36,669 bases of DNA, taken from the IMG/VR virus record IMGVR_UViG_3300028610_001191, positions 1 to 36,669 of that record; one strand, given 5' to 3'. The translations under genes were made by a program, and so were the position numbers. The notes beneath the pieces are model-generated. The model had not been told where the DNA came from. It saw nothing but the letters and a program-made list of their open reading frames with translations, and did no database searches. Positions 1,717-36,250 of this stretch are shown here, one piece after another. This DNA comes from a virus. How positions within the stretch are numbered: the stretch's first letter is position 1; each line of letters opens with the position of its first letter.

Positions 1717-4473
1717 TTACGACGGCAGTTCTAGGCTTAGATCTGCGAAATCATTGATCAGGGCCAGGTTGATATCAACAATATCCGAACCTGTCATTGT
1801 GGTTCTGTGGATGAAGACATCCAACGTCTCAGTGACATATCCACCATTGGACGATGAAGCATCATTGCCTCTCACACTGTCTGTAAGCTTTAATGGATCA
1901 AACATCAATCCACTATTTCCTCTAAGCTCTACGAGCATTTTTGAGATCTTGTCCATCCGCTCATTGAACTCTTCCAGATTGTCCTCCATCTTAGCGCCAA
2001 TCTCTGCAATGGCTCCCTGAGTATAACCCTCGTAACCATTTGCAATAGCAGACGTAAATTTCAAAAGGTTCTCTACGGTTGCAAGTTCGCTGAGACTACT
2101 AATATCAAAACCACCGGCAACACCCATGGTTATGGCCAGATTGACTACGGCAGCGATAATCGCACCCCACTTGGCACCAAATATGGCCGTGGCTCCGGCA
2201 GAGATGATCTGGGATATGGCAACAGCCACGAGAGCATTGACAATAGCACCAGCAAGAATGGCAGCCGTACCAGTCAAACCCATGGCTGCACCTATGGCAG
2301 CATTGGCACCAAGTATACCGACACCTCCTCCGGCTGGAGCAAAGATGACAGTAACCACAATCATAACAATGAAGATGATCAACATTCCAATGAAACCCTG
2401 GTACCATTTCTGCTTCACAATCTCGTAGGAGTTGAAGACGATGTTGGTATTGGCCGTAGCCATCTGGGTCGAGTCTTTGAGACCAAGGTCTTTCATGGTA
2501 TTGTAATGCAACGGGATGATGAAACCACTAGGATCCACCTCGTTAATAGCTTCTTTTGCATGAAGCTTGACTGCCTCACCGCCATATACAAAATTCTTGT
2601 GGACTAGGCCCCAGCATTCCAAGCTTTTCCAGTTAGTAGCGTCAACCTGCCAACCCAAATGTACCCGTTCAATTTTGAAATTTCTGGTGATGGCGTTGGG
2701 ATATACTCCAGATACCACTTCCCACTCAAGATCCACACCCTCAGTCCACCAAATTTCGCCTGCTACGGCGAGCAAACCTGTCTCGGTATTTGTGAGAGTA
2801 CCAGTGCCGGTGGTCTCCGTGATGTTTACGAAGTTGGTGCGCTGATCCGCATGGTCACATTGCTCGTCGGCAGGACGCAACGTAACAGAGGTCACTTCCG
2901 GCGAGGCCAATAAAGGTGTCGGAGGTCTTGCATCTCCATACCGAGGCCGAGACGAAAGCCCCTGGTCGAAGATCCAGTCATTCAGATCAGCCACTTCAGC
3001 CAAGTAGGTAGCCACCAAACTGGAGTAACCCGTCATGTAGGACGAAGAGGTGGTCTGGTGGGCAGATGCATTCTTGAGCCAAGTGTACATGTATTTGCGG
3101 CAAGCGGGCTCAATCACATTGAGAGAGACCCCGAAGTGTATAAATGCGTAGTCAATGTCATTGATGTCCGGGTTTTCCTCCACTTCGGTAACAAGCCTTG
3201 AAAACCTCTGACCACCACCAGAGGCACGTCTATAGGCTCGATTGGTTTTCTCATAGAGCCCGCTGCCTGTGATATCGTCGTATTCCGTGTTGGTGATCGA
3301 GTTATTATTTATCCGGATAGGTAGAAAGGGGAAATACTCAGCCTCCTCTGCGGTGGTGCTTACAGTCGCGAATAGGGCATCCAGAGTGGCGTTACCTGTG
3401 CCGATCTCGTAGCTGAACAGCTCTACACCGCCCTCCATTTTCAGGAGGGTAGTCGGCTGAGTATCAATACGCCAATCGTAAATTGGCCGGATATGTTCAC
3501 CTATCCTGGTTGTCGTGATAGTCTCAGTCTGACCTGCCACCGGGGTATTCTCATTGACCACAACTGAGACGGTGGTAGTGGTGCTGTAGATCTGCCGATA
3601 TTCGGAGATCTCCAGAAAATGCTCCGTAGAGATTGTCTCTTCGGTATTCCCATCGCCACCGTCATAAGTGATCTTGGACCAGGTTTCATCTAGACCATCG
3701 AAACCAGGGTTGTCACTGTCGGGAGTGGTCACGTCGGTATCCACCGGAAGGGTGGGAGGCTCAGAGCCAGTGTAGACCGTCACAACTCGTGTATCGAAGG
3801 TCATGGGGTAGTTGACCACGCCCGTGTTGACGGAGGCATCCAGGCCATAACCAGTCGTGGAAGGCTTGGTCAGCACTCCTACCGTGGTCCCACCTGTCAC
3901 CAGGCTGCCAACGCTGGCTGGTAGATAGTGGTAATACTCGGCTACGATATAGGATTTGGTCACGTCGTATGTACCGGCAGAAATCACAGTGGAACCTCCC
4001 GGAGGACTTGCCCACTGGATCGTGATGTCGTTGGTGATCTTGTCGTAGGATGTCACATAAGCTGTGTCATACCGATCCGGATGGTTATCCAAAACGTACT
4101 TCTCCACGATATGCTCATAGCTACCCGAAACCAGATTGGCCGACTGCATGGAGATAACCAAACCAGCAGGAGACCCAGGAGTAGGGATCTCCCCAGCCAC
4201 CACAGTAGGATCCACACTGGTCTCGCTGGTCACAGAAAATGTAGGCAAACCAGGATAGTTCTGCCTCACGCACCACTTATAAAATTGCCGTTGGTTCATC
4301 CCCGGACCATTGAGAAGATTGTAAGCAATCGCTTCCCCGAGGTAAGGATTATGAGGGGACATGACTGCCCCAAAGATCGTGTTCTTCAGGTAATCCGGAC
4401 GGGTCGCTTCGTCTCCGGCCATATTGTAAACCGTTGACGAAACGACAATAGTTTTACCACCCAACAGGCCCAT
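1717..4473 (-). CDS. Large virion protein with membrane-active segment (N4-like late operon)
   Basis: 918 residues, starting at ATG 4473 four bases after the stop of the upstream gene. Residues 1-680 are a beta-rich, Thr/Val/Tyr-rich region without transmembrane segments. Residues about 685-786 are strongly hydrophobic and Gly/Ala-rich, with several membrane-length stretches (one contains IIFIVMIVVTVIF). The last 130 residues are charged and helical, with a short coiled coil around 830-850. A soluble domain plus an internal hydrophobic block suits an ejection protein that inserts into the cell envelope, or a tail-hub protein. Position between the repeat coiled-coil protein and the small Gly-rich gene matches the internal-protein block of N4-like phages. 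No enzymatic motif was seen. Structural role is likely; the exact function is unknown. Confidence 0.6.
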   Translation of the reverse strand: MGLLGGKTIVVSSTVYNMAGDEATRPDYLKNTIFGAVMSPHNPYLGEAIAYNLLNGPGMNQRQFYKWCVRQNYPGLPTFSVTSETSVDPTVVAGEIPTPGSPAGLVISMQSANLVSGSYEHIVEKYVLDNHPDRYDTAYVTSYDKITNDITIQWASPPGGSTVISAGTYDVTKSYIVAEYYHYLPASVGSLVTGGTTVGVLTKPSTTGYGLDASVNTGVVNYPMTFDTRVVTVYTGSEPPTLPVDTDVTTPDSDNPGFDGLDETWSKITYDGGDGNTEETISTEHFLEISEYRQIYSTTTTVSVVVNENTPVAGQTETITTTRIGEHIRPIYDWRIDTQPTTLLKMEGGVELFSYEIGTGNATLDALFATVSTTAEEAEYFPFLPIRINNNSITNTEYDDITGSGLYEKTNRAYRRASGGGQRFSRLVTEVEENPDINDIDYAFIHFGVSLNVIEPACRKYMYTWLKNASAHQTTSSSYMTGYSSLVATYLAEVADLNDWIFDQGLSSRPRYGDARPPTPLLASPEVTSVTLRPADEQCDHADQRTNFVNITETTGTGTLTNTETGLLAVAGEIWWTEGVDLEWEVVSGVYPNAITRNFKIERVHLGWQVDATNWKSLECWGLVHKNFVYGGEAVKLHAKEAINEVDPSGFIIPLHYNTMKDLGLKDSTQMATANTNIVFNSYEIVKQKWYQGFIGMLIIFIVMIVVTVIFAPAGGGVGILGANAAIGAAMGLTGTAAILAGAIVNALVAVAISQIISAGATAIFGAKWGAIIAAVVNLAITMGVAGGFDISSLSELATVENLLKFTSAIANGYEGYTQGAIAEIGAKMEDNLEEFNERMDKISKMLVELRGNSGLMFDPLKLTDSVRGNDASSSNGGYVTETLDVFIHRTTMTGSDIVDINLALINDFADLSLELPS

Positions 4474-16460: not shown

Positions 16461-16757
16461 ATGGTATGCACAACAAACTACACCTGCGTCCTCAAATGGT
16501 ATGTCCTTACGGATACTACCGTTATCGCTCAGGCGGGCGGGCCCAGTGAACCAGATCTGAATGTGACTTGTATCGTGAATACTGGAAATATCCAGTTTCA
16601 GGTGAAGGACGAACTCGACGCATGGTTCACCCCTGCGGACGCTTCGTACACAGTCACAGTCTCCAATGTGATCCGGATGCCTCGGGGCAATATGCCTGAG
16701 ATGCGTATTCTGGCCACTGGCAATGCGACCTTCGCCGTCCATGGTGCTCTCACCTGA
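16461..16757 (+). CDS. Small beta-rich protein, first of the appendage genes
   Basis: 98 residues from ATG 16461, with GGAAA seven bases upstream; an in-frame ATG at 16410 would add 17 residues but has no ribosome binding site. The protein is beta-rich, with short alternating hydrophobic strands and three Cys near the start and middle. No signal peptide is seen. It ends in TGATG, sharing one base with the next gene, so the two are coupled. A small beta-sandwich or chaperone-like partner of the next gene is possible. Function is inferred only from neighbours. Confidence 0.5.
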   Translation: MVCTTNYTCVLKWYVLTDTTVIAQAGGPSEPDLNVTCIVNTGNIQFQVKDELDAWFTPADASYTVTVSNVIRMPRGNMPEMRILATGNATFAVHGALT

Positions 16758-17968
16758 TGACGCATCAAGCCGATAAGGTAACCGATGCGGTCCAGGATCG
16801 TCACGTTGAGCAGATCATTCTCAGCGGATCTCCGTTCGTATCCTCGATCCTTGGACCCGATGCTTATCACATATCGGCAGCGACCGTACCTCTGTTCTAT
16901 GGGGCTCCTATCGTTGTGGGTAGTGTTGTTGAGTTGTCTGTGCTCCTTTGCAGTGAGGGAGCTTTCCATTCGTCCCCTCGTGCTGTGGCTACCTACCAGT
17001 GGAAGAAAGACACGATCGATATTCCTGGGGAAACCAGCAACATGTACGCCACGGTCATCGGGGATATCGGGTCAGAGATTACCTGTCTGGTAACGGCAAC
17101 CAACGCCTCGGGAAATGACAGTCTGATTTCCAACGGTATCACGATGGAAGCTCTCGTCGCCAGCAGTGTCTTCACAGTGGATTGGAGTGTCATCCAAGGA
17201 TTGTCGACCCCAATCCAGGCTCAACAGATGACTCTTGACGCCATGATAATGCAGGGTCTTGCTGTCGAGGGTCAGATCGCTGTAGAGGAGCAATGTGCGT
17301 TCATTATAAATGGGATGGGCGATCCTGACTCACAAACACACTTTGAGGCGGAGAGTTATGTGATGACCGGCCTGCCCTGTCTCCCTGCACAATCGCATAT
17401 GGAGCTAGGTGCTTATGTCATGGAGATGGTGACATCCCTGACACCTCTGGTCGTTGTTAACGGTGATGCGGAAAACTCCGTCATGACCGATTGGACCATG
17501 GACACCGGTACAGTCACCTCCGTTACCACGGCCACAGATCACAATGCGGGTAACAGAGAGGGTCTGCGCTTCTTCATGCCTGCTGATCTCGGCCAAGGTG
17601 TCGACTCCCAGATGAGCCAAGTGATACTCATTCCTGCGGGTGATTTCACTGATGTCGACACAGGACTCTGCTACTGCTTTGCCAATTTCCTTCACCAGTC
17701 CAAACAAGAGTACGATATCCTGGTAATCACCCTGGAAGCTCTCAATGCGGCAGATGGAGTATTGAACACGGCGGTAGCCACTATGCCAGCGAGCCCAGCC
17801 AACGAAGGATGGATGCGAGACCAGACTTTGGACGATAAACTGAGCCTACCCACCCTGACCAGGAAAGTAAAAATAACTGTACTTTTCAAGGCGCATGATA
17901 CACTAGGTAGCACCGCCAACAGCGTCTATGCTGACGACATCCAGATCGAGTTGATCAAAATACTGTAA
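16757..17968 (+). CDS. Probable tail-appendage protein with Ig-like domain
   Basis: 403 residues. Residues about 40-125 look like a bacterial/phage Ig-like domain: a strand pair, then ATYQWKKDTIDIPGETSNMY and GSEITCLVTATNASG, the usual YQW...C-x-V-x-A-x-N pattern. Residues 135-225 are Met/Gln/Glu-rich with repeated units around AESYVMTGL and ELGAYVMEM. Residues 230-403 form a jelly-roll-like carbohydrate-binding domain (GDAENSVMTDWTMDTGT at the start, DDIQIELIKIL at the end). Ig and carbohydrate-binding modules on phage surfaces aid host attachment. It is transcribed opposite to the virion operon, together with the next gene. A fibre or appendage role is inferred. Confidence 0.58.
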   Translation: MTHQADKVTDAVQDRHVEQIILSGSPFVSSILGPDAYHISAATVPLFYGAPIVVGSVVELSVLLCSEGAFHSSPRAVATYQWKKDTIDIPGETSNMYATVIGDIGSEITCLVTATNASGNDSLISNGITMEALVASSVFTVDWSVIQGLSTPIQAQQMTLDAMIMQGLAVEGQIAVEEQCAFIINGMGDPDSQTHFEAESYVMTGLPCLPAQSHMELGAYVMEMVTSLTPLVVVNGDAENSVMTDWTMDTGTVTSVTTATDHNAGNREGLRFFMPADLGQGVDSQMSQVILIPAGDFTDVDTGLCYCFANFLHQSKQEYDILVITLEALNAADGVLNTAVATMPASPANEGWMRDQTLDDKLSLPTLTRKVKITVLFKAHDTLGSTANSVYADDIQIELIKIL

Positions 17969-17984
17969 CCGAGGAGACCACCCC

Positions 17985-18965
17985 ATGCCGAATATTGTAT
18001 TCGTTTCCAACAACAAAGCTCACTGGGTCAACGGTGTGTCGTCCACGACGGCAGGTACTTTTGACTCAACGAGGGTGCCTTACGCCATTGAATTGGCCGA
18101 ACAGGAGGTGATGACTTCGCCTGTATTCACTCCTGTAGCTGGGGACGACACTTGGATGCACTTTCGCATGTTCATGGATAGCATCGAGAACAATGGCTTC
18201 TTCACGTTCTTCAAGGCTTTTGATGTCAGCGGTAATCTTTTGTTCGTGATGTCCAAGAAGGTTCCATCAGTCGCCTACACAGTTACATTGACCCACTACA
18301 ATGGTGCTGGTGGTAGTGAGACTGCCGAGCAAACCATCCCCTTCAACCGTAACCGTGTCAACAACGTCGATATCAAAGTCGAGATGACTGGCGTTCTCAT
18401 GGCTGTGCATATGTACGTGAATGGCGGCCTTGCCATAACGAACTCCATCGCCAGTAATCCCGCTTCCTGGGGTGCTCCTGCCTACTTCACCGTGGGTTGT
18501 GCATTCTCAGATCTCGTCACAGATACGATGAACTTCTCTGAGTTCATCGTCGCCGACGTGGATACCCGGAACGCTCGTATGAGCCTGGTCCGTCCGACGG
18601 CTACTGGTGGAGAGGCTGATTGGATCGGCCCGGCTGCGAACCTGTCCGATGATGATCCCGCCTCGGGTATCACCACCACAGCGGCCAATGCACGTCATAC
18701 CCTGGATCTGGCAGCCTACGGTGGTGCATCCAACATCTCCGCCGTGATGGTGGCTTCCCAGAGCCTGGCTGGTGCCAACGGCCCCCAGAACATGCGACAC
18801 ACAGTCCGCATGAGTGCCGTGAACTACGACAGCACAGCCGATATCCTGCTGGGAGCAACCCTAAGCTACGAACTGACGCAGTTCGATATCAACCCGGCTA
18901 CCAGTTTGCCGTGGGTTGGTGGGGATCTGGCTACGATGGAAATGGGGTTCATCTCGAAGGCATAA
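17985..18965 (+). CDS. Probable tail fibre/receptor-binding protein
   Basis: 326 residues, GAGGAG nine bases before ATG 17985. Residues 1-195 look like a concanavalin-like beta sandwich (alternating strands such as WMHFRMFMD, FTFFKAFDVSG, DIKVEMTGVLMAVHMYVNGG). Residues about 205-326 form a second beta domain beginning EADWIGPAANLSDDDP and ending MEMGFISKA, a type often found at the C-terminus of phage tail proteins. No enzymatic residues are evident. It ends before a hairpin terminator that separates it from the convergent minus-strand cluster. Receptor binding is the likely role; it takes the slot of the N4 appendage genes but I see no clear similarity to gp65 or gp66. Confidence 0.58.
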   Translation: MPNIVFVSNNKAHWVNGVSSTTAGTFDSTRVPYAIELAEQEVMTSPVFTPVAGDDTWMHFRMFMDSIENNGFFTFFKAFDVSGNLLFVMSKKVPSVAYTVTLTHYNGAGGSETAEQTIPFNRNRVNNVDIKVEMTGVLMAVHMYVNGGLAITNSIASNPASWGAPAYFTVGCAFSDLVTDTMNFSEFIVADVDTRNARMSLVRPTATGGEADWIGPAANLSDDDPASGITTTAANARHTLDLAAYGGASNISAVMVASQSLAGANGPQNMRHTVRMSAVNYDSTADILLGATLSYELTQFDINPATSLPWVGGDLATMEMGFISKA

Positions 18966-18970
18966 AAGGA

Positions 18971-19000
18971 GGGAGGCGGCCAATGTTCTGGTCGCCTCCC
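18971..19000. terminator. Bidirectional hairpin terminator between convergent genes
   Basis: GGGAGGCGGCC and GGTCGCCTCCC form an 11-bp stem with one G-T pair and an 8-base loop. On the minus strand it is followed by TCCTTTT, on the plus strand by TAACTCTTATTT. It lies between the plus-strand gene ending at 18965 and the minus-strand gene ending at 19007, so it can end both transcripts. Confidence 0.75.
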
Positions 19001-19006
19001 TAACTC

Positions 19007-19408
19007 TTATTTGAGGGTGTCGAATTTCTCACTGATCCGATGCAGGATATGAGTTGCATACGCCGTGAGCTGGGCCTCCGGGATACTCCGGACATTCGCA
19101 TCCACATCTTCATGGGCAAAGGGTGATCGCTTGATGAGGGCTTTCTTTGCCTCAATCCGCTCCTCGGACGTTGTGCCTGCGGCACCGCCCTTCGTCGCTG
19201 GGATATCCTTGACGACAACCTCGCCACCGGGGAGCACCCCATAAAGCTGAGCGATATCGTTCACTGCGGATTTCAGCACATCCAGAGTCTCAGCTACCTC
19301 CTTCTCCGTGGGTTTGTACCTCGCCCCATTGGTCAGGAGCAGAATGGCCTTGACGGCCTTATCAGTACGGGGGGAGAATATTCTGGTAAACTCGGTCTTC
19401 TTCGTCAT
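19007..19408 (-). CDS. Unknown helical protein, last of the four-gene minus cluster
   Basis: 133 residues from ATG 19408, chosen for AGGAG seven bases upstream; an upstream in-frame start lacks this. The protein is helical and Lys/Glu/Ala-rich with a central Gly-rich loop (LPGGEVVV, then TKGGAAGTTSEER). No signal peptide or membrane segment is present. The start overlaps the stop of the 76-residue gene (ATGA), so it is translated by coupling. No family is recognised. The convergent terminator follows. Confidence 0.55.
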   Translation of the reverse strand: MTKKTEFTRIFSPRTDKAVKAILLLTNGARYKPTEKEVAETLDVLKSAVNDIAQLYGVLPGGEVVVKDIPATKGGAAGTTSEERIEAKKALIKRSPFAHEDVDANVRSIPEAQLTAYATHILHRISEKFDTLK

Positions 19409-19635
19409 ACAGGGTCTCCTTTTACTTTTCGGGCGGCTTCCCAACGATTGTCAGCCATGACACAGGCTGTCCTGTGCTTGACATCCCCTACAACCATCGG
19501 CAGGTAGTCTTGAGCAAATAAGAGGCGCTCTTCACATATTGCCTTGTTTGGCTGCTGAAGAGGTGCCCACCCATCGGCCACTGCAAAGTCCTGGATCGCT
19601 GGGTTCCAGAACAATAAAACGAGAAACCAGTTCAT
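19405..19635 (-). CDS. Small exported or membrane-anchored two-Cys protein (paralogue B)
   Basis: 76 residues, GGAGG about ten bases before ATG 19635. A hydrophobic N-terminus (NWFLVLLFW) is followed by a polar domain with two Cys (AICEERLLFAQ and TACVMADNRW). The layout matches the neighbouring 81-residue protein: W-aromatic-LVLL start, Pro/Lys/Gln before C-x-[DE]-E, then C-[IV]-x-A-D-x-W. The two are likely diverged tandem copies with a disulfide in the periplasm or on the membrane surface. The start overlaps the previous stop (ATGA). Function is unknown; the DUF1353 neighbour hints at envelope or lysis-related work. Confidence 0.55.
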   Translation of the reverse strand: MNWFLVLLFWNPAIQDFAVADGWAPLQQPNKAICEERLLFAQDYLPMVVGDVKHRTACVMADNRWEAARKVKGDPV

Positions 19636-19877
19636 ACGTTATCTCCTCCGAATTTGAACGCTTTGAGCATGATGTCGTGCAGATCCTGCCAGTCATCGGC
19701 CTCGATGCAGTAGAGCTTGGCTTTCTCGTTACGACGATCGATCATCAGGCTGAAACCTTCATCCACACATTCCTGCTGGGTCTTGAAGGGTGCCGGGAGA
19801 TGATTGGGGTCGAGGGACCAGTGGTCGCCGACAGCAACCAGGAGTACCAGATACCAGGTGGTGACCATGGTAATCAT
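19632..19877 (-). CDS. Small exported or membrane-anchored two-Cys protein (paralogue A)
   Basis: 81 residues from ATG 19877, which overlaps the DUF1353 stop (ATGA). A hydrophobic N-terminal segment (WYLVLLVAVG) serves as signal or anchor, followed by PFKTQQECVDEGF and LYCIEADDW, the same Cys spacing pattern as in the 76-residue neighbour. Its own stop overlaps that neighbour's start, again as ATGA. Homology of the pair is read from the aligned pattern, not a search. Function is unknown. Confidence 0.55.
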   Translation of the reverse strand: MITMVTTWYLVLLVAVGDHWSLDPNHLPAPFKTQQECVDEGFSLMIDRRNEKAKLYCIEADDWQDLHDIMLKAFKFGGDNV

Positions 19878-20359
19878 GACGGGATATGCAGGAAAAGGTG
19901 CTTGTCGCGGTTCTTGTAAACACCCCAAGAAAACTGCATGGCCACCTTGATAGCTGTTCGGACAGTCCACTTGACTTTGGCAGCCTTCAGACCAGCGTAC
20001 AGCACCTTGTTGGCAAACTTCCAGTCAGCCTTGGTCGGCGACCGTTCCTGCAATTGCCAAGCGACGTACAGCCAGTCATGGACGATACAAGCCTCCAGAT
20101 GGGGCCCCACCCTCCCGACGATATTCCTGAAGCTCTTCGGAACACTGGCCAGATCCGTCGTCAGACCTTTGGGAACTACGATGGTATACGGATACCCTTC
20201 GATAGTCAGCTCCACCGGGTAATCCTCCATCACAACATACATGGCCTCGCGATCACCCACAGCCTGTAGTACATCAGGACATCGGCCCAGAACGAGCCAG
20301 TCGGTGTATCGGAAATTGGTAATCTCCGCCTTGGGATCAAAGTATGGGTACATTGCCAT
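19874..20359 (-). CDS. DUF1353 family protein
   Basis: 161 residues, AAAGGA eight bases before ATG 20359. It carries the DUF1353 core: PKGLTTDLASVPKSF (64-77), then EACIVHDWLYVA (89-100) and SPTKADWKFANKVL (107-120). The invariant Thr-Asp, His-Asp and Ala-Asp residues suggest a metal-dependent or structural active site, but the family has no established activity. DUF1353 proteins are common in phages, often close to lysis or tail genes. It is first in a four-gene chain linked by ATGA overlaps. Upstream lies a palindrome-rich stretch that may hold its promoter or operator. Confidence 0.78.
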   Translation of the reverse strand: MAMYPYFDPKAEITNFRYTDWLVLGRCPDVLQAVGDREAMYVVMEDYPVELTIEGYPYTIVVPKGLTTDLASVPKSFRNIVGRVGPHLEACIVHDWLYVAWQLQERSPTKADWKFANKVLYAGLKAAKVKWTVRTAIKVAMQFSWGVYKNRDKHLFLHIPS

Positions 20360-20379
20360 GGGACGTTTCCTTTCGTTGC

Positions 20380-20411
20380 GTGAGAAACCCCTGTACAGGA
20401 GAAAATCTCAC
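20380..20411. promoter_or_regulatory. Nested palindrome upstream of the DUF1353 cluster
   Basis: GTGAGA (20380) and TCTCAC (20406) flank a perfect 10-base palindrome CCTGTACAGG (20390-20399). It lies 21 bases upstream of the DUF1353 ATG, so it falls in that gene's leader or operator. GGTGAGAAATTTTCC just upstream can also pair with GAAAATCTCAC, giving an alternative fold. Operator or transcript-structure roles are both possible. Confidence 0.4.
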
Positions 20412-20695
20412 AGATCAAACCATTGGTGAGAAATTTTCCTAATCCCCTCCTGCAAATTTAGGAGATTATCCCACGAATAACCCTCACAGCCGCATAATCT
20501 CCCACCAATGCGGCGGCCCACGCCACTTTTTTCTCACGAACCAGCTCATACGCAGGAAAATATCCCAATCCAAAAACTTGACAGGCCGGACCCGAGTCGG
20601 GGTATACCTACGGCCTGGCAGATGCTGAGGAGGAGGGCTTGGCCGAACTATGATAATTATCCCCCTCCCGCCCAGGTGATAATCCTCCATACGAT

Positions 20696-20735
20696 ATGAA
20701 AGGTGACCACAACTTCCTCCATGGAGACCTTTCAT
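20696..20735. repeat. Inverted repeat ATGAAAGGT/ACCTTTCAT with internal palindrome
   Basis: Perfect 9-bp arms at 20696-20704 and 20727-20735. The 22-base loop contains CTCCATGGAG, itself a perfect palindrome. It is in the gene-poor region and not followed by a T-run, so a terminator is unlikely. A protein-binding or packaging element is possible. Confidence 0.45.
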
Positions 20736-20792
20736 GACTGAAACTCCACCCACTCTCAAACCAAGGGAAGAACGAACGAAGGACCAGAACCG

Positions 20793-20803
20793 AGCGCAGC
20801 GAG
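20793..20803 (-). promoter_or_regulatory. Possible leftward virion-polymerase promoter hairpin
   Basis: On the minus strand this reads TCGCTGCGCTC, identical to the four rightward early elements except for the middle base of the loop. The strand that would be template carries GCGCAGC, still a C(GNA)G mini-hairpin. It points left, towards the DUF1353 cluster 430 bases away. A G start would fall one or two bases later than in the other copies, so it is less certain. Confidence 0.3.
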
Positions 20804-21082
20804 GTGGTAGGGCCGAGAGTGAGTTCTGACCGACCCCCAGTATCATTACCCTCCATTACCGTTCACTAACTATGTTTCTGGTTTAACATGGCTCCATGTG
20901 AAATAGGTTTTTGATATACTCAACCATAATATATTTAAATTTGAGAAAAGTGGTATGTGTCGAGAGGTGTAGGTCTTTCACTACACTGGGGTACACATCT
21001 GAAGAACTACCCCCCCGCTTCTTTGACATACACCCATTCATGCCCCCCCTTGTTACTTACACCACCAGGGCCCAGCGTCCCT

Positions 21083-21099
21083 TCGCTTCGCTCTTACTG
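21083..21099 (+). promoter_or_regulatory. Early promoter candidate E1 (mini-hairpin type)
   Basis: TCGCTTCGCTC at 21083-21093. The template strand carries GCGAAGC, a C(GAA)G mini-hairpin of the kind recognised by N4 virion RNA polymerase. Nine bases after the loop the predicted start is G21099, 37 bases before the first early ATG. It shares TCGCTTCGCTCTTAC with E2. Confidence 0.6.
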
Positions 21100-21135
21100 A
21101 ACCCTTAACCATCAACCCCATCTGGGAGCACTCAC

Positions 21136-21387
21136 ATGTCCATGTTTCGCACCATGTCTCAGTTCGTGCAGAGCACGTTCAACACCCTCACCTCCACCGT
21201 GGACTCACTGCAAAAAGTCCTCGACATCGGCAATGATTATATTGCCAATCAGCACAAGTCAGTCACCAGGACCGTAGCAAAGGCTGCTATCCTCAACACT
21301 GCACACCAGCACGTCGCCATCCAGAATGAGCTGGAAGCAGACGATAAACTGGCCAAGATCTTCGCCGACCTCGAAGCCGAGTGGTAA
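21136..21387 (+). CDS. First early gene, helical protein of 83 residues
   Basis: GGGAG lies seven to eight bases before ATG 21136, 37 bases downstream of predicted early start E1. The protein is helical with Ser/Thr-rich heptads over residues 8-40 (TFNTLTSTVDSLQKVL), then a basic helix (HKSVTRTVAKAAIL) and an acidic C-terminus (LAKIFADLEAEW). No family is recognised. As the first gene expressed from the left end it is a good candidate for a host-takeover factor, but the sequence itself does not show how it would act. Confidence 0.6.
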   Translation: MSMFRTMSQFVQSTFNTLTSTVDSLQKVLDIGNDYIANQHKSVTRTVAKAAILNTAHQHVAIQNELEADDKLAKIFADLEAEW

Positions 21388-25845: not shown

Positions 25846-25893
25846 GGAAGAACCCGTAGCTACTAACCCAACCATCCTTGAAAGGATATGTCC

Positions 25894-26280
25894 ATGGCCG
25901 TAATTTCTGTCAACTCTCCTCGCCGCAACCCGATCATCAACGACAACGATGAGTATCAGGGTCTGTGGCTCAACGTCGGCATCATGCAGTCCGGCGTCGA
26001 AGAGGGCGATGAGCCCTCGTTCGTGCGTCTGCCTCGTGGCGTCGCCGTCTCCGACCTGAAGTCCCGGAAGATCTATGACAACATGGATCCGGACTTCGCC
26101 GCGTCGGCCAACCTGATGAACCAGCTTATCACCGAGATCCAGAAGAAGGCTCTCACCCTCGGCGAAGGCGAGTCGATCCCGGTCAATCTGTCGGTCCAGC
26201 TCTACCGCCGTCAGGAAGAGTCGGTCCAGGCTGCCACTCCGGCTGCCAACGAAGACTTGGCCACGGCTCTCTTTGCCTAA
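25894..26280 (+). CDS. Conserved-looking early protein, 128 residues
   Basis: Start ATG 25894 is chosen over ATG 25888 because AAAGGA is then at normal spacing. A soluble beta-rich protein: DEYQGLWLNVGIMQ, FVRLPRGVAVSDL, a helix LMNQLITEIQKKALTLGEGESIPVNLSVQLYRR split over residues 75-108, and an Ala-rich tail. It has the look of a small single-stranded-DNA or RNA-binding beta-barrel, but no motif proves it. Codon use is strongly C-ending (GTC, CTC, GGC) compared with neighbours, which suggests high expression. It is alone between E3 and a strong hairpin. Confidence 0.6.
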   Translation: MAVISVNSPRRNPIINDNDEYQGLWLNVGIMQSGVEEGDEPSFVRLPRGVAVSDLKSRKIYDNMDPDFAASANLMNQLITEIQKKALTLGEGESIPVNLSVQLYRRQEESVQAATPAANEDLATALFA

Positions 26281-26315
26281 GGCCGCTTTCTGCCACATGT
26301 GTGGTTCTATACTGT

Positions 26316-26356
26316 CATACCCCTGCGCTCCAACCAAGTTGGAGCGTGGGGGTATG
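26316..26356 (+). terminator. Very strong hairpin ending the E3 unit
   Basis: An 18-bp stem with two wobble pairs (arms begin CATACCCC and end GGGGTATG), closed by a 5-base loop. It lies 35 bases after the stop of the 128-residue gene and 46 bases before E4. No T-run follows (AACTTTG), so it may act as a transcript 3' end protector or a factor-dependent stop. Confidence 0.55.
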
Positions 26357-26401
26357 AACTTTGAACTAGGAACAAATAGATTGACGAAATAGACTGCATT
26401 G

Positions 26402-26418
26402 TCGCTTCGCTCCTCCCG
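26402..26418 (+). promoter_or_regulatory. Early promoter candidate E4 (mini-hairpin type)
   Basis: TCGCTTCGCTC at 26402-26412; the predicted start nine bases after the loop is G26418. It precedes the NADAR gene and the small genes after it. The leader to ATG 26521 is about 103 bases and contains a duplicated segment. The flank CCGC-GTT-GCGG just downstream is a second small hairpin. Confidence 0.55.
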
Positions 26419-26484
26419 CGTTGCGGTCAACTTCGAGTTAATCTACGTGAAACTGGAAATTGGCCAAAAGTTCAAAATATGGAT

Positions 26485-26538
26485 GGAAACTCCCTGAAAC
26501 CTAACTGGAGTATAAATACTATGGGAAACTCCCTGAAA
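26485..26538 (+). repeat. In-frame direct repeat at the start of the NADAR gene
   Basis: GGAAACTCCCTGAAA occurs at 26485-26499 and 26524-26538, 39 bases (13 codons) apart, each preceded by an ATG context. Both copies read GNSLK in the NADAR frame. It looks like a duplication of the gene's first codons, leaving two possible starts (26479 and 26521). Confidence 0.6.
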
Positions 26539-26994
26539 ATCGCTGGCTTCTTCGGAGAATATCGCTTCTTGAGTAACTTCTGGCCCGCCTCCATCACCAT
26601 ACTGGGTATACCTTATTTGAATGTAGAGGCCGCCTATCAAGCAAGCAAAAGCTATGACATGACCGTTCGAAAATCATTCTCACATCTCAGCCCCAAAGAG
26701 GCCAAGGCCAAAGGCAGAATAATCAAATTTGGTGGTGACTGGAGTGACGTAAGCAAAGTCACATCCATGGAATTATGCCTACGGGCAAAGTTCAATATCC
26801 CTGAGCTGAAAGCTCGACTCATATCTACAAACGGTTTTGAGTTGGAGGAAACCAACACCTGGAATGATCAATTCTGGGGTGTTTGCCGAGGCAAAGGCCG
26901 AAACCTCATGGGTAAGCTACTTATGGGACTCCGTGACGAACTGGTCATGTATGACTACCCAAACATCGACGATGTAAGAGAAATCCCCTTCTGA
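26521..26994 (+). CDS. NADAR-domain protein (YbiA-like N-glycosidase fold)
   Basis: 157 residues from ATG 26521 (GGAG ten bases upstream); ATG 26479 would add 14 residues. NADAR motifs are in order: GEYRFLSNFWPA (12-23), VEAAYQASK (35-43), a middle helix SMELCLRAKF, NDQFWGV (115-121) and GKGRNLMGKLLMGLR (124-138). The family includes the riboflavin-pathway N-glycosidase YbiA and DNA ADP-ribosylglycohydrolases that reverse DarT-type guanine modification. Which activity this one has cannot be read. In a phage early region, removal of ADP-ribose placed on DNA or nucleotides by host defence is an attractive role. The gene is under E4. Confidence 0.85.
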   Translation: MGNSLKIAGFFGEYRFLSNFWPASITILGIPYLNVEAAYQASKSYDMTVRKSFSHLSPKEAKAKGRIIKFGGDWSDVSKVTSMELCLRAKFNIPELKARLISTNGFELEETNTWNDQFWGVCRGKGRNLMGKLLMGLRDELVMYDYPNIDDVREIPF

Positions 26995-27006: not shown

Positions 27007-27216
27007 ATGAAAGACGCACAGCTCATTCTAGTTCTGGAAAAACTCTTCCACGATCTGGATGAAAACATCTGCTATGCCGCACGCAACTGCCGATGCAGCG
27101 ATGCAAACACTGCTCTCCATGAGCTGTCGGGGGCCATCAACATGATGGATATCCCCTACTTGGTTCGAGAGGCACTGGAGATCCCTCACCCCGTATACAT
27201 ACCCAGCAAAAAGTAA
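27007..27216 (+). CDS. Small early protein with Cys cluster, 69 residues
   Basis: AAAGGA seven bases before ATG 27007, 12 bases after the NADAR stop. Helical start (AQLILVLEKLFHDLDENI) then CYAARNCRC, three Cys within nine residues, then an amphipathic helix (ANTALHELSGAIN). The Cys group might bind metal, but there are too few ligands to claim a zinc finger. Function unknown. Confidence 0.56.
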   Translation: MKDAQLILVLEKLFHDLDENICYAARNCRCSDANTALHELSGAINMMDIPYLVREALEIPHPVYIPSKK

Positions 27217-27222
27217 ATCCCC

Positions 27223-27306
27223 ATGAACTGGCGACTCATCATACCTGTCACAGCGAGTTTCATGTCATGGGGAACCCTGATCTGGTTAATAGGAGGAGCA
27301 GTATGA
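27223..27306 (+). CDS. Very small membrane protein, 27 residues
   Basis: ATG 27223 to TGA 27304-27306, which overlaps the next start (ATGA). Nearly the whole protein is hydrophobic (LIIPVTASFMSWGTLIWLIGG), one transmembrane helix. No good ribosome binding site of its own, so translation may depend on the preceding gene. Confidence 0.4.
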   Translation: MNWRLIIPVTASFMSWGTLIWLIGGAV

Positions 27307-27491
27307 ATAACCTGCAATTAGCTGAGCAGGATCGCAATGAAATCTACATCAGATACCTGCGTGCTCCCTCAGCAGGAAACTTTGCCCTGAAAGAGCGACT
27401 CAACGATGCCAACAATGAAGTGCGACGTATCAAACGACTCATCGAAAAAGTAACAGAACTCAGGAAAAAGCGGAAAGGTGCTGAATCATGA
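27303..27491 (+). CDS. Small coiled-coil protein, 62 residues
   Basis: ATG 27303 overlaps the previous stop and has AGGAGG upstream. Highly charged, helical: QLAEQDRNEIYIRYLRAP, then NDANNEVRRIKRLIEKVTEL with a heptad pattern and a Lys/Arg-rich end. Its stop overlaps the SleB-type hydrolase start. Function unknown. Confidence 0.52.
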   Translation: MNNLQLAEQDRNEIYIRYLRAPSAGNFALKERLNDANNEVRRIKRLIEKVTELRKKRKGAES

Positions 27492-27862
27492 TCATCGAGC
27501 TATGTCTGGCTACGGCTCTCTTCTTTGAGGCACGTAACCAACCCATCGATGGACAAATGGCTGTAGCCGAGGTCATCCTCAATCGCGTTGAGGACTCGCA
27601 ATGGCCTGATACTATCTGTGGAGTGGTCAACCAGTCCAAGCAGTTCAGCTTCACCCATGATGGATTGTCCGACGATCCAACCAAGTATGGAGACGCTGCT
27701 GCCTGGGTAACTGCCCAGATCATCGCCAGGGACGCTGTGGAGGGCCACAACACCCTGGGTCTGACAGCCACTCACTATCACGCCACGTCTGTGCATCCCT
27801 CCTGGACCCACGCTCTGGAGCTGGATGGACAGATCGGAGATCACATCTTCTACAGCAAATAA
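27488..27862 (+). CDS. SleB-type cell-wall hydrolase, likely endolysin
   Basis: 124 residues, starting inside the previous stop (ATGA). It matches the Hydrolase_2/SleB family: FFEARNQPIDGQMAVAEVIL (12-31; Glu14 is the expected catalytic residue), LNRV, then VVNQSKQFSF (46-55), a helix with A-x-x-A-R-D-A-V-E-G, and ATHYHATSVHPSW (76-88 region). Such enzymes cleave the peptidoglycan sugar backbone. There is no signal peptide, so release would need the holin encoded far away at 13046-13372. The gene lies in the early/middle region rather than the late lysis block, which is odd for an endolysin. Family call is firm; the endolysin role is inferred. Confidence 0.8.
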   Translation: MIIELCLATALFFEARNQPIDGQMAVAEVILNRVEDSQWPDTICGVVNQSKQFSFTHDGLSDDPTKYGDAAAWVTAQIIARDAVEGHNTLGLTATHYHATSVHPSWTHALELDGQIGDHIFYSK

Positions 27863-27873
27863 GGAGATCTGCG

Positions 27874-28098
27874 ATGATTGTAACAGTCATCTGGAATGAC
27901 TTCACCTCTGATGGTGACAATGCCCATGCCGAGGCTGTCGAAGTCCGTGAACGCGACGATGGCAGTCTCTACATCGAAGGTATCGTTCGTCAAGGTATGA
28001 GGCAAATGGGATATGCCGAAACACTGATCAATGAAGCCATCAAACGAAGCTACGGCTTGATTGGCATTATCAAAGGCCGTGTCGAGTGGCTGGCGTAG
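27874..28098 (+). CDS. Small protein, 74 residues
   Basis: AGGAG seven bases before ATG 27874. A beta-rich N-terminus (IVTVIWNDF, HAEAVEVRERDDGSLYIEG) is followed by a helix (YAETLINEAIKRSYG). No motif. It overlaps the next gene if that gene starts at GTG 28086. Confidence 0.55.
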   Translation: MIVTVIWNDFTSDGDNAHAEAVEVRERDDGSLYIEGIVRQGMRQMGYAETLINEAIKRSYGLIGIIKGRVEWLA

Positions 28099-28328
28099 TC
28101 CTGGTCTACAATCGGCAGATGCCCTACGGCGACTGCATGGACCGAACCTACCCAGCCACATTCAAAAACCGAGACTGTCCCAAGCTTAAACAAGCCATGG
28201 CTGAAGTATGCCAGAAATGGATTGTCTCAAACTTGAGGATCTACGACGGAAATTACGTGCCGAACACACCAAAATGGCCTGAATGTGCTTACGGTCATAG
28301 ATATGAACTCAAGGAGCTTAGGAAATAA
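28086..28328 (+). CDS. Small Cys-containing protein, 80 residues, start uncertain
   Basis: The frame can start at GTG 28086 (AAAGG about nine bases upstream, 13-base overlap with the previous gene) or at ATG 28119. I prefer the GTG because VVLVYNRQ reads as a natural first strand. Four Cys (in YGDCMD, NRDCPK, AEVCQKW and WPECAYG) are spread over the protein and could bind a metal. The gene ends two bases before RNAP1. Function unknown. Confidence 0.48.
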   Translation: MAGVVLVYNRQMPYGDCMDRTYPATFKNRDCPKLKQAMAEVCQKWIVSNLRIYDGNYVPNTPKWPECAYGHRYELKELRK

Positions 28329-28330
28329 CC

Positions 28331-29119
28331 ATGGACCAAAAACAAAGCGACCTGGAGATCCTCTACTCGAAACATCAACTCCTCCCAGTCTTACGGGAAG
28401 AGTTCGATGCAATCGCAATCCAGTACCCGATCGACGCCGACCATGAGTTCGTACGTGACATGCTGAGCCAGATCTACCTGCACCGTCAGGCTGATCCTCC
28501 TACCTTGGTTGGGATCCTGTCCCCCAAGTATGGCACTCCCCAAGAGGTGGCAGACAAACTGCTGCTCATGTGTGAGTTCGACTACCTCGATTTCAGTGAA
28601 ACCACCGGCAACTTCATGGTCAAATACGACGTGAGCGATAACATCGAGGCCATGCTGGAGAGATACCAGTATCCACTGCCAATGATCGTCAAACCCGACA
28701 CGATCCACGATAACTTCTCCACCGGGTACCACACCATCAAAGGCTTAGTGATCCTGAATGGGTCGACATATTTCAATAATCTCGACGTATGTCTGGATCA
28801 CCTTAACCGCGTGAACGCTGTTCCTCTGGTTCTGGACTTCTCGGTGATCCGCTCTGCCGAGGGCAAATACATCAAGCCCACCCGCAAAGAGGGGGAGTCC
28901 TACGATGACTTCCGCAAGCGACTGAAGCAGGCATCTGTCTTCTACAGCGTCTCTTTGGAGGTCATGGAGGGTCTCGCTGAACTCTCTGATGTTCTGTACC
29001 TCACCCACAAATACGACCGCAGAGGTCGCTGCTACGCCTCTGGTTATCACGTCAACACCCAGGGGACCGACTACAACAAAGCAGTCCTCCAGCTCGCAGC
29101 AAAGGAAAAATTAACATGA
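28331..29119 (+). CDS. RNA polymerase II subunit RNAP1, N4 gp15-like
   Basis: 262 residues, AGGA seven bases before ATG 28331. The C-terminal part has THKYDRRGRCYASGYHVNTQG (about 225-245), which corresponds to the D-x-R-G-R motif of single-subunit T7-type polymerases. GSTYFNNLDVCLDHLNRVNAVPLV (about 143-165) matches the preceding N-terminal palm/thumb region. In N4, gp15 and gp16 together make the heterodimeric polymerase that transcribes middle genes; this is the gp15 part, and the length agrees (269 in N4). Here the partner gene lies 1.1 kb downstream instead of adjacent. Assignment is by motif and gene order. Confidence 0.86.
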   Translation: MDQKQSDLEILYSKHQLLPVLREEFDAIAIQYPIDADHEFVRDMLSQIYLHRQADPPTLVGILSPKYGTPQEVADKLLLMCEFDYLDFSETTGNFMVKYDVSDNIEAMLERYQYPLPMIVKPDTIHDNFSTGYHTIKGLVILNGSTYFNNLDVCLDHLNRVNAVPLVLDFSVIRSAEGKYIKPTRKEGESYDDFRKRLKQASVFYSVSLEVMEGLAELSDVLYLTHKYDRRGRCYASGYHVNTQGTDYNKAVLQLAAKEKLT

Positions 29120-34276: not shown

Positions 34277-34783
34277 ATGATCGTCAATCGGAACAGTCTG
34301 TTAGCGGCTCAACCTATCAAAAATATGCGTATAATGAAGCACCAAGCCCATGGTACTTCTTATGGTCTCACTGAAGCTGGCTACGACATCCGTATCCAGG
34401 AGACAATCACCTTCAACTACCACGAGACTCGTCCATGGGTAACCATCAATGATCCCCGTAACAGATATGAGGGTAGAGGAAAGAGGGGACGGTTTATCCT
34501 TGCATCTTCCATGGAAATGTTCCAAATGCCTCTCGATCTTGTTGGCACCGTCAGTGACAAATCTTCCTGGGCTCGCAGAGGTGTGTCGGTCTTCAACACA
34601 GTTATCGAGCCAGGCTGGAATGGCATCTTGACGTTGGAGTTGGTCTTTCATGGTAGTGAGGATCTTACCATACCAGCCGGGTCAGGTATTGCTCAAGTCC
34701 TCTTCGCACGACTCCAGTGTACCGGAGACTACGGAAACGGAAAATATCAGGATGCCAGGGGCATCGAAGAAGCAAAGTTCTAA
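34277..34783 (+). CDS. dcd: dCTP deaminase (Dcd/Dut superfamily)
   Basis: 168 residues starting directly after the VWA stop. Dcd signatures are in order: EAGYDIRIQE (33-42), VSDKSSWARRG (92-102), TVIEPGWNGILTLEL (108-122, with the expected catalytic Glu121) and IPAGSGIAQVLFARL (132-146). The enzyme deaminates dCTP to dUTP and may also hydrolyse it to dUMP, the substrate of thymidylate synthase. Its neighbour encodes ThyX, so the pair supplies dTMP. A bifunctional form cannot be told from motifs alone. Length is slightly below the bacterial enzyme (about 190). Confidence 0.88.
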   Translation: MIVNRNSLLAAQPIKNMRIMKHQAHGTSYGLTEAGYDIRIQETITFNYHETRPWVTINDPRNRYEGRGKRGRFILASSMEMFQMPLDLVGTVSDKSSWARRGVSVFNTVIEPGWNGILTLELVFHGSEDLTIPAGSGIAQVLFARLQCTGDYGNGKYQDARGIEEAKF

Positions 34784-34795
34784 GGAGAACCACAC

Positions 34796-36250
34796 ATGGA
34801 ACGCAGAAAACCGAAGCTACTTGTCATTGGTCACGCACGCCATGGCAAGGATACTGTTGGTGACATGATCACCGATCTGATGGACTTAGCCTTCACTTCC
34901 TCATCTATTTTCGTTGGTCGAGAGTGTGTTTGGCCTCATTGGGGCAAAGACCGCTACGCCTCCTTCGATGAGATGTTCGAGGATCGAGTGAATTTCCGAT
35001 CGACTTGGGCCAATCTAATCCTGGCCTACAACACTCCCAATCTGGCTCGCACGGCCACAGAGATGTTGAAGGACAATGACCTATACGTCGGAATGCGTAA
35101 CCGTGCCGAACTCGATGCCTGCAAAGAGCAGGGCATTTTCGACTACATCATCTGGGTCGACGGCAGCTCACGTCATCCTCCGGAAGGCAAGGACTCCAAC
35201 CAGTTGACTCCTGATGTTGCTGACCTTCACATCGACAACAATGGACCAGAGTCCAACTTGCATGTCGCAATTCGGAACTTACAGGTGCGTCTATATGAGG
35301 AAGGTTTCGATGTCGATTACACACCTCCTCCTGCATTGCCGGGTGGTCTAGAACAAGAAGAATATGACAACCTGCACCGAACCGAAATCAGTGAAGATGC
35401 GGATGAAGATCTTCGAAAATGGGTCGGACTTCCTCTTGCCGATGGCATACTTCGTACTTGGGAGGATATGCCAGAAGGTGCCACCCAAGTCTTGGACCAT
35501 GGCTTCTTCAAAGTGTTGGAGGTCATGGGCTCAGATACCACCATCTGTGAGTCAGCACGTATGTCCTACGGACGTGGAACCAAGAAGGTCAGCAACGATG
35601 CTGGTCTCATCAACTATCTGGTTCGAAACAAGCACACGTCCCCCCTGGAAATGGGAGAGATCCGTTTCCACATCCGTATGCCCATATTCGTGATGCGACA
35701 GTGGGTCCGTCATCGGACTGCCAACCTGAACGAATACTCGGGTCGATATTCGGAGATGGTTCCTCTGTTCTACGTACCAGAACTGGATCAGATCTGCCTC
35801 CAGGACAAGGTGAACAAGCAGGGATCTGCCGAACCTATGAGCCCCAAGAACGCGGAAATCATGCGCCAGAAGATCTACAAGACCTGTGGAATGGCCTTCC
35901 ACGAATACCAGGAACTGCTAACCTGGGGAGTTTCCCGTGAGACAGCTCGGATTGTCCTGCCCCTGAATACCTATACCGAGGTAGTCTGGAAGCTGGATAT
36001 CTCGAACCTGATCAAGTTCCTATGGCTCAGGGACGACAGCCATGCTCAGTGGGAAATCCGGCAGTATGCTCAACTGGTTTCCTTGGCAGTCAAGGAGAAT
36101 TTCCCTCTGGTTTACAATGCTTACATCGAAACTCGAAACTCTCAGAGCTTTACCCCAGAGGAGATTCATACTCTCATCACAGGTGACAGTACGAACCTAT
36201 CCAACAGTCAAATGCAGAGGATTGCCAGTTTCCGAGAAGGCCACTTCTGA
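34796..36250 (+). CDS. thyX: Fusion: P-loop nucleotide-kinase-like domain plus flavin-dependent thymidylate synthase ThyX
   Basis: 484 residues, AAGGAG eight bases before ATG 34796. Residues 1-180 form a P-loop domain: LLVIGHARHGKDT (8-20, Walker A type GxxxxGKDT as in phage deoxynucleoside-monophosphate kinases) and later YIIWVDGS. A 50-residue acidic linker follows. ThyX starts near 237 (FFKVLEVMGSDTTICESAR) and has the diagnostic RHR-x7-S motif RHRTANLNEYS at 305-315, then GRYSEM, and a C-terminal REQ-free but normal RIVLPLNTYTE. ThyX makes dTMP from dUMP with flavin and folate; the N-domain could phosphorylate dTMP or another nucleotide, which would channel product. The start and intact frame rule out a sequencing join inside the linker as far as can be read. 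Confidence 0.87.
   Translation: MERRKPKLLVIGHARHGKDTVGDMITDLMDLAFTSSSIFVGRECVWPHWGKDRYASFDEMFEDRVNFRSTWANLILAYNTPNLARTATEMLKDNDLYVGMRNRAELDACKEQGIFDYIIWVDGSSRHPPEGKDSNQLTPDVADLHIDNNGPESNLHVAIRNLQVRLYEEGFDVDYTPPPALPGGLEQEEYDNLHRTEISEDADEDLRKWVGLPLADGILRTWEDMPEGATQVLDHGFFKVLEVMGSDTTICESARMSYGRGTKKVSNDAGLINYLVRNKHTSPLEMGEIRFHIRMPIFVMRQWVRHRTANLNEYSGRYSEMVPLFYVPELDQICLQDKVNKQGSAEPMSPKNAEIMRQKIYKTCGMAFHEYQELLTWGVSRETARIVLPLNTYTEVVWKLDISNLIKFLWLRDDSHAQWEIRQYAQLVSLAVKENFPLVYNAYIETRNSQSFTPEEIHTLITGDSTNLSNSQMQRIASFREGHF

Follow-up and report, generated by a model that had tools for sequence, protein, structure and literature searches.

The 36,669-base virus sequence analysed here (hereafter the window) encodes a NADAR protein in an accessory slot of an N4-like phage genome. 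Its gene is accessory, likely early, and probably specifies an ADP-ribosyl-guanine glycohydrolase with which the phage counters a host defence based on ADP-ribosylation.

The open reading frame originally called for this gene (Table 1) encodes a real protein of the NADAR superfamily. It matches the Pfam NADAR family PF08719 (3.7e-16; 60.2 bits, exceeding the cut-off of 35.1), PHROG 1017 (4e-36) and the sequence of the E. coli YbiA structure 2b3w (9.4e-11), and a tblastn search with the protein matched 436 phage records. A profile built from 13 phage relatives retrieves the ADP-ribose-bound NADAR 8bau at 2.1e-18. The AlphaFold model, computed from 66 aligned sequences, has a mean pLDDT of 90.3 and adopts the alpha+beta fold of YbiA and other NADARs, with Z scores of 18.4 against 2b3w, 16.8 against 8bau and 8.0 against 8bat, the DarT1-associated NADAR of G. 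lovleyi. Besides these three structures, the comparison of the model gave no match above Z 2.3. NCBIfam has two NADAR models, and the protein stays below the curated cut-off of each.

Translation probably starts at the second ATG of the frame, giving a protein of 157 aa, because a GGAG is located about 10 nt 5' of this codon, residues 1-18 of the 171-aa form are modelled with low confidence, and homologue matches mostly start at residues 19-21 of that form. The first ATG, at 26479, has no Shine-Dalgarno sequence. The beginning of the frame looks duplicated (26479-26540): the peptide GNSLK occurs twice, 13 codons apart, within the first 20 residues.

Table 1. Position and description of the NADAR gene and of the features surrounding it in the window.
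Feature	Position	Strand	Description
NADAR gene (predicted YbiA-type), original call	26479..26994	+	open ORF, 171 codons + stop
Likely true NADAR coding region, second ATG	26521..26994	+	157 aa; GGAG, model confidence, homologue starts
N4 gp2-like gene, upstream slot border	25888..26280	+	phrog_4099 1.7e-27
Possible terminator hairpin between gp2-like and NADAR genes	26315..26357	.	20 bp, 3-nt loop; RNA fold -37 kcal/mol
NADAR promoter element, early-type candidate (virion RNA polymerase)	26402..26412	+	TCGCTTCGCTC
Small accessory ORFs after NADAR	27007..28328	+	same slot, including cell-wall hydrolase
Cell-wall hydrolase	27488..27862	+	PF07486 2.1e-25
RNAP1 (N4 gp15-like), downstream slot border	28331..29119	+	phrog_2166 1e-75

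The preliminary description of this DNA had called the NADAR motifs complete, and the conservation read from an alignment of 217 NADARs bears this out. The six residues concerned are nearly invariant: E50 is found in all 217 sequences, D130 in 216, K57 in 213, W133 in 212, W88 in 209 and E124 in 208. In the order E50, K57, W88, E124, D130 and W133, they align with E43, K50, W89, E125, D130 and W133 of 8bau, for which PMC11543638 describes roles in binding and catalysis. The catalytic Glu and Lys of 8bau (E43 and K50) thus both have their equivalents in the window protein. A residue in the last strand splits the NADAR subfamilies, being Glu in YbiA, Asp in the DarT1 partners and His in the T4-type phage NADARs, according to PMC11125620; PMC11543638 also gives Asp at the key position of the DarT1-associated type. 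In the window protein, this catalytic position is occupied by Glu (E124), which by sequence places it in the YbiA type. The residue mapping was checked, since the His of T4 gp30.3 falls in the alignment column of E124. Membership of the T4 gp30.3 type (His) and of the BC4488, DarG1 or DarT1-associated type (Asp) is ruled out by E124.

The window represents part of the genome of an N4-like phage (Schitoviridae) related to the roseophages of the subfamily Rhodovirinae. Its portal, major head protein, terminase and RNAP1/RNAP2 indicate an N4-like phage, and both RNAP2 and the major head protein have their best matches in roseophages at ~54-65% identity. The host may be roseobacter-like. No near-identical DNA was found in the phage sequence collection. 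The contig probably joins two ends of the phage genome, because late genes including the terminase (- strand) adjoin early genes (+ strand) at 16757-21136, whereas late and early genes lie at opposite genome ends in N4.

The NADAR gene is an accessory gene in a slot common to related phages, bordered by an N4 gp2-like gene, 37-54% identical to those of ten Rhodovirinae genomes, and by RNAP1, which shares 51-64% identity with Rhodovirinae and close relatives. Roseophages R2C and RPP1 have a NADAR in this same interval and are the only two of the ten named Rhodovirinae that carry one; the remaining eight and N4 have none, their records having been searched whole. In the two closest viral-contig relatives (RNAP1 identity 64% and 58%), no NADAR occurs within 10-13 kb around RNAP1, a region covering the slot. 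It is this distribution, limited to R2C and RPP1 among the ten Rhodovirinae and N4 and lacking in both closest relatives, that identifies the gene as accessory. The NADAR frame is also AT-richer than the slot borders (GC 0.459, versus 0.593 for the gp2-like gene and 0.522 for RNAP1). In the tree, the window NADAR falls into a phage-rich cluster away from E. coli YbiA; the tree separates the NADARs of the slot from each other, yet remains compatible with a single clade (p-AU 0.128).

Some other elements of the slot deserve mention. The possible terminator hairpin upstream of NADAR has no clear T run. Among the small ORFs following NADAR, a Pfam match was obtained for the cell-wall hydrolase and for none of the others; an early slot is an odd site for such a lysis-type enzyme. 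The equivalent early interval of N4 includes gp12 (N4 positions 3605-3973), a DUF4326 protein.

The NADAR gene is likely expressed early, because of its gp2-like/RNAP1 neighbourhood and of a promoter-like heptamer, GCTTCGC, located ~75 bp upstream within the element TCGCTTCGCTC. The complete element is present four times in the window (21083, 24191, 25829 and 26402), always on the + strand and each time preceding an early ORF, compared with a mean of 0.02 copies expected from dinucleotide shuffles. N4 served as positive control: in its left 12 kb, GCTTCGC or GCTCCGC is found solely at 93, 562 and 4551, all in hairpins, fitting in number and form the three known early promoters of this phage, the biology of which is treated in PMC4496689. 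The heptamer also precedes the gp2-like genes of relatives; the identical 11-mer is present three times in RD-1410W1-01 and a one-base variant twice in V13. No extended hairpins were found at the copies of the window, whereas the N4 controls (stems of 5-7 bp) and the relative L255 have them. The position of the gene and this element support the early expression proposed in the preliminary description.

The activity proposed for the window protein is based on analogy with tested members of the family. The set studied in PMC11125620 includes four E. coli-related NADAR subtypes, among them T4 gp30.3 and YbiA; in vitro, all of its NADARs release guanine-linked ADP-ribose from DNA and none the thymine-linked form, in line with the earlier statement that some NADARs reverse this guanine modification. 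PMC11833690 reports cleavage of guanine-ADPr in RNA too. In the mechanism considered here, a stand-alone YbiA-type NADAR would be made early in infection by the N4-like phage. E50, K57 and E124 would form its catalytic centre, with the ADP-ribose held by W88, D130, W133 and basic residues. The enzyme would hydrolyse the N-glycosidic bond by which ADP-ribose is attached, through its ribose, to the guanine base, and may in this way restore nucleic acid of the phage, or RNA of the host on which the phage depends, after modification by a host ADP-ribosyltransferase. DarT1, a YarT-like enzyme or another toxin would be candidates for the latter. PMC11125620 offers a precedent in a myxobacterial YbiA, which protects cells against YarT, the toxin it is partnered with. 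Alternatively, the enzyme could be directed against a different guanine ADP-ribosyltransferase, at RNA or at a small ADP-ribose signal. Several points speak against the counter-defence explanation, namely the NCBIfam scores below cut-off, the promoter-like copies devoid of the N4-type stems, and the lack of protection from DarT1 by YbiA and T4 gp30.3 (PMC11125620).

Specific action against DarT1, the narrower form in which the preliminary description had worded its proposal, is plausible but unproven, and we consider it doubtful. A 2025 paper deals with phage orphan antitoxin-like enzymes that neutralize DarTG1, and it reportedly shows this for NADARs of T4-like and unrelated phages. The lysine on which rescue by the DarT1 partners depends is K115 in E. 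coli C7. DarT1 modifies guanine (PMC11543638). The intact active site, the early accessory slot and the guanine-ADPr activity of the family are the parts of the earlier proposal that find support. What does not support action on DarT1 is the type of the window protein, which lacks the Asp of the DarT1 partners, and the fact that cells suffering DarT1 toxicity are not rescued by YbiA or T4 gp30.3 in PMC11125620. No Pfam ART or DarT match to an adjacent DarT1 gene was seen in the neighbouring ORFs scanned, and no ORF of the window matches the DarT profile built for this analysis; as the window is a fragment, other ADP-ribose genes of the phage may be missed. The search was extended to genomes of two bacterial classes, one represented by an alphaproteobacterial MAG (338 genomes) and the other by a gammaproteobacterial MAG (275 genomes). 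DarT was detected in 17 and 21 of them and NADAR in 20 and 18, respectively. The two genes were side by side in none of the 338 or the 275, which also argues against DarT1 specificity, albeit weakly, as the Pfam DarT model may be poor at detecting DarT1.

A second possibility, which appears unlikely, is that the enzyme cleaves small ADP-ribose derivatives of host immunity, such as cyclic ADP-ribose signals, instead of nucleic acid. A viewpoint (PMC9503650) ascribed such a role to most phage NADARs on the basis of domain networks, and its authors also tie DUF4326 to ADP-ribose processing, so that gp12 of N4, at the equivalent early position, would fit this scheme. The direct NADAR assays, on the other hand, concern guanine-linked ADP-ribose, and their accessible descriptions contained no test of cyclic ADP-ribose.

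Still less probable is a metabolic N-glycosidase acting on riboflavin intermediates or in nucleotide salvage, and aiding the nucleotide supply of the phage or the cofactor balance of the host; salvage had already been named as an alternative in the preliminary description. YbiA is indeed described as a riboflavin-intermediate cleaver in PMC11543638, and the window protein matches the corresponding N-glycosidase model TIGR02464; its 49.9 bits, however, do not reach the curated cut-off of 73.7. The nucleotide genes of the phage lie elsewhere (dCTP deaminase at 34277, thymidylate synthase at 34796), and a role in host conflict fits better than core metabolism because the gene is patchily present in an early slot. 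A superinfection-exclusion or defence gene shielding the infected cell from other phages is very improbable: a model for a 'NADAR family anti-phage protein' exists in NCBIfam, and the validated defences discussed in DefensePredictor (PMC13092281) include NADAR-domain proteins, but the score to this model is 43 bits against a cut-off of 240 and the gene is early in an N4-like, probably lytic phage.

Phages that are related but differ in having or lacking a NADAR at this location form a clean, testable set, which could reveal the host ADP-ribosylation system answered by these enzymes. As a tentative and rather unlikely extension, the gene may point to a guanine ADP-ribosylation defence of marine alphaproteobacteria that has escaped recognition and is distinct from DarTG1; to reverse it, the N4-like phages of these bacteria would have acquired YbiA-type NADARs, possibly repeatedly, into one early slot. 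Promoter-like elements are moreover supplied for a group in which no promoter consensus was reported for the two roseophages examined (PMC4193335).

In comparison with known systems, the DarG1 or DarT1-associated NADARs (BC4488 type; G. lovleyi 8bat) share the general fold (Z 8.0) and, in the literature, the guanine-ADPr chemistry; they differ by the Asp at the key position (PMC11543638) and the window is devoid of a DarT gene match. T4 gp30.3 likewise comes from a phage and cleaves guanine-ADPr in vitro (PMC11125620), but is only 22% identical and has His in place of Glu. The NADARs of R2C/DFL12phi1 and RPP1/RLP1 have the gp2-like/RNAP1 slot and the Glu type in common with the window protein at ~43% identity, yet are not its nearest neighbours in the tree (a single clade being compatible, p-AU 0.128). 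In these phages, unlike in the window, NADAR is not separated from RNAP1 by a series of extra ORFs. E. coli YbiA (2b3w) resembles the window protein in fold (Z 18.4), in the catalytic E-K-E set and in the last-strand catalytic Glu; the identity is 34%, the loop before the ND..WG motif differs by one residue more, and the two proteins are on different branches of the tree. The window NADAR is a further instance of an already known type of gene, and it extends the YbiA (Glu)-type phage NADARs to N4-like relatives of the roseophages, in their early accessory region.
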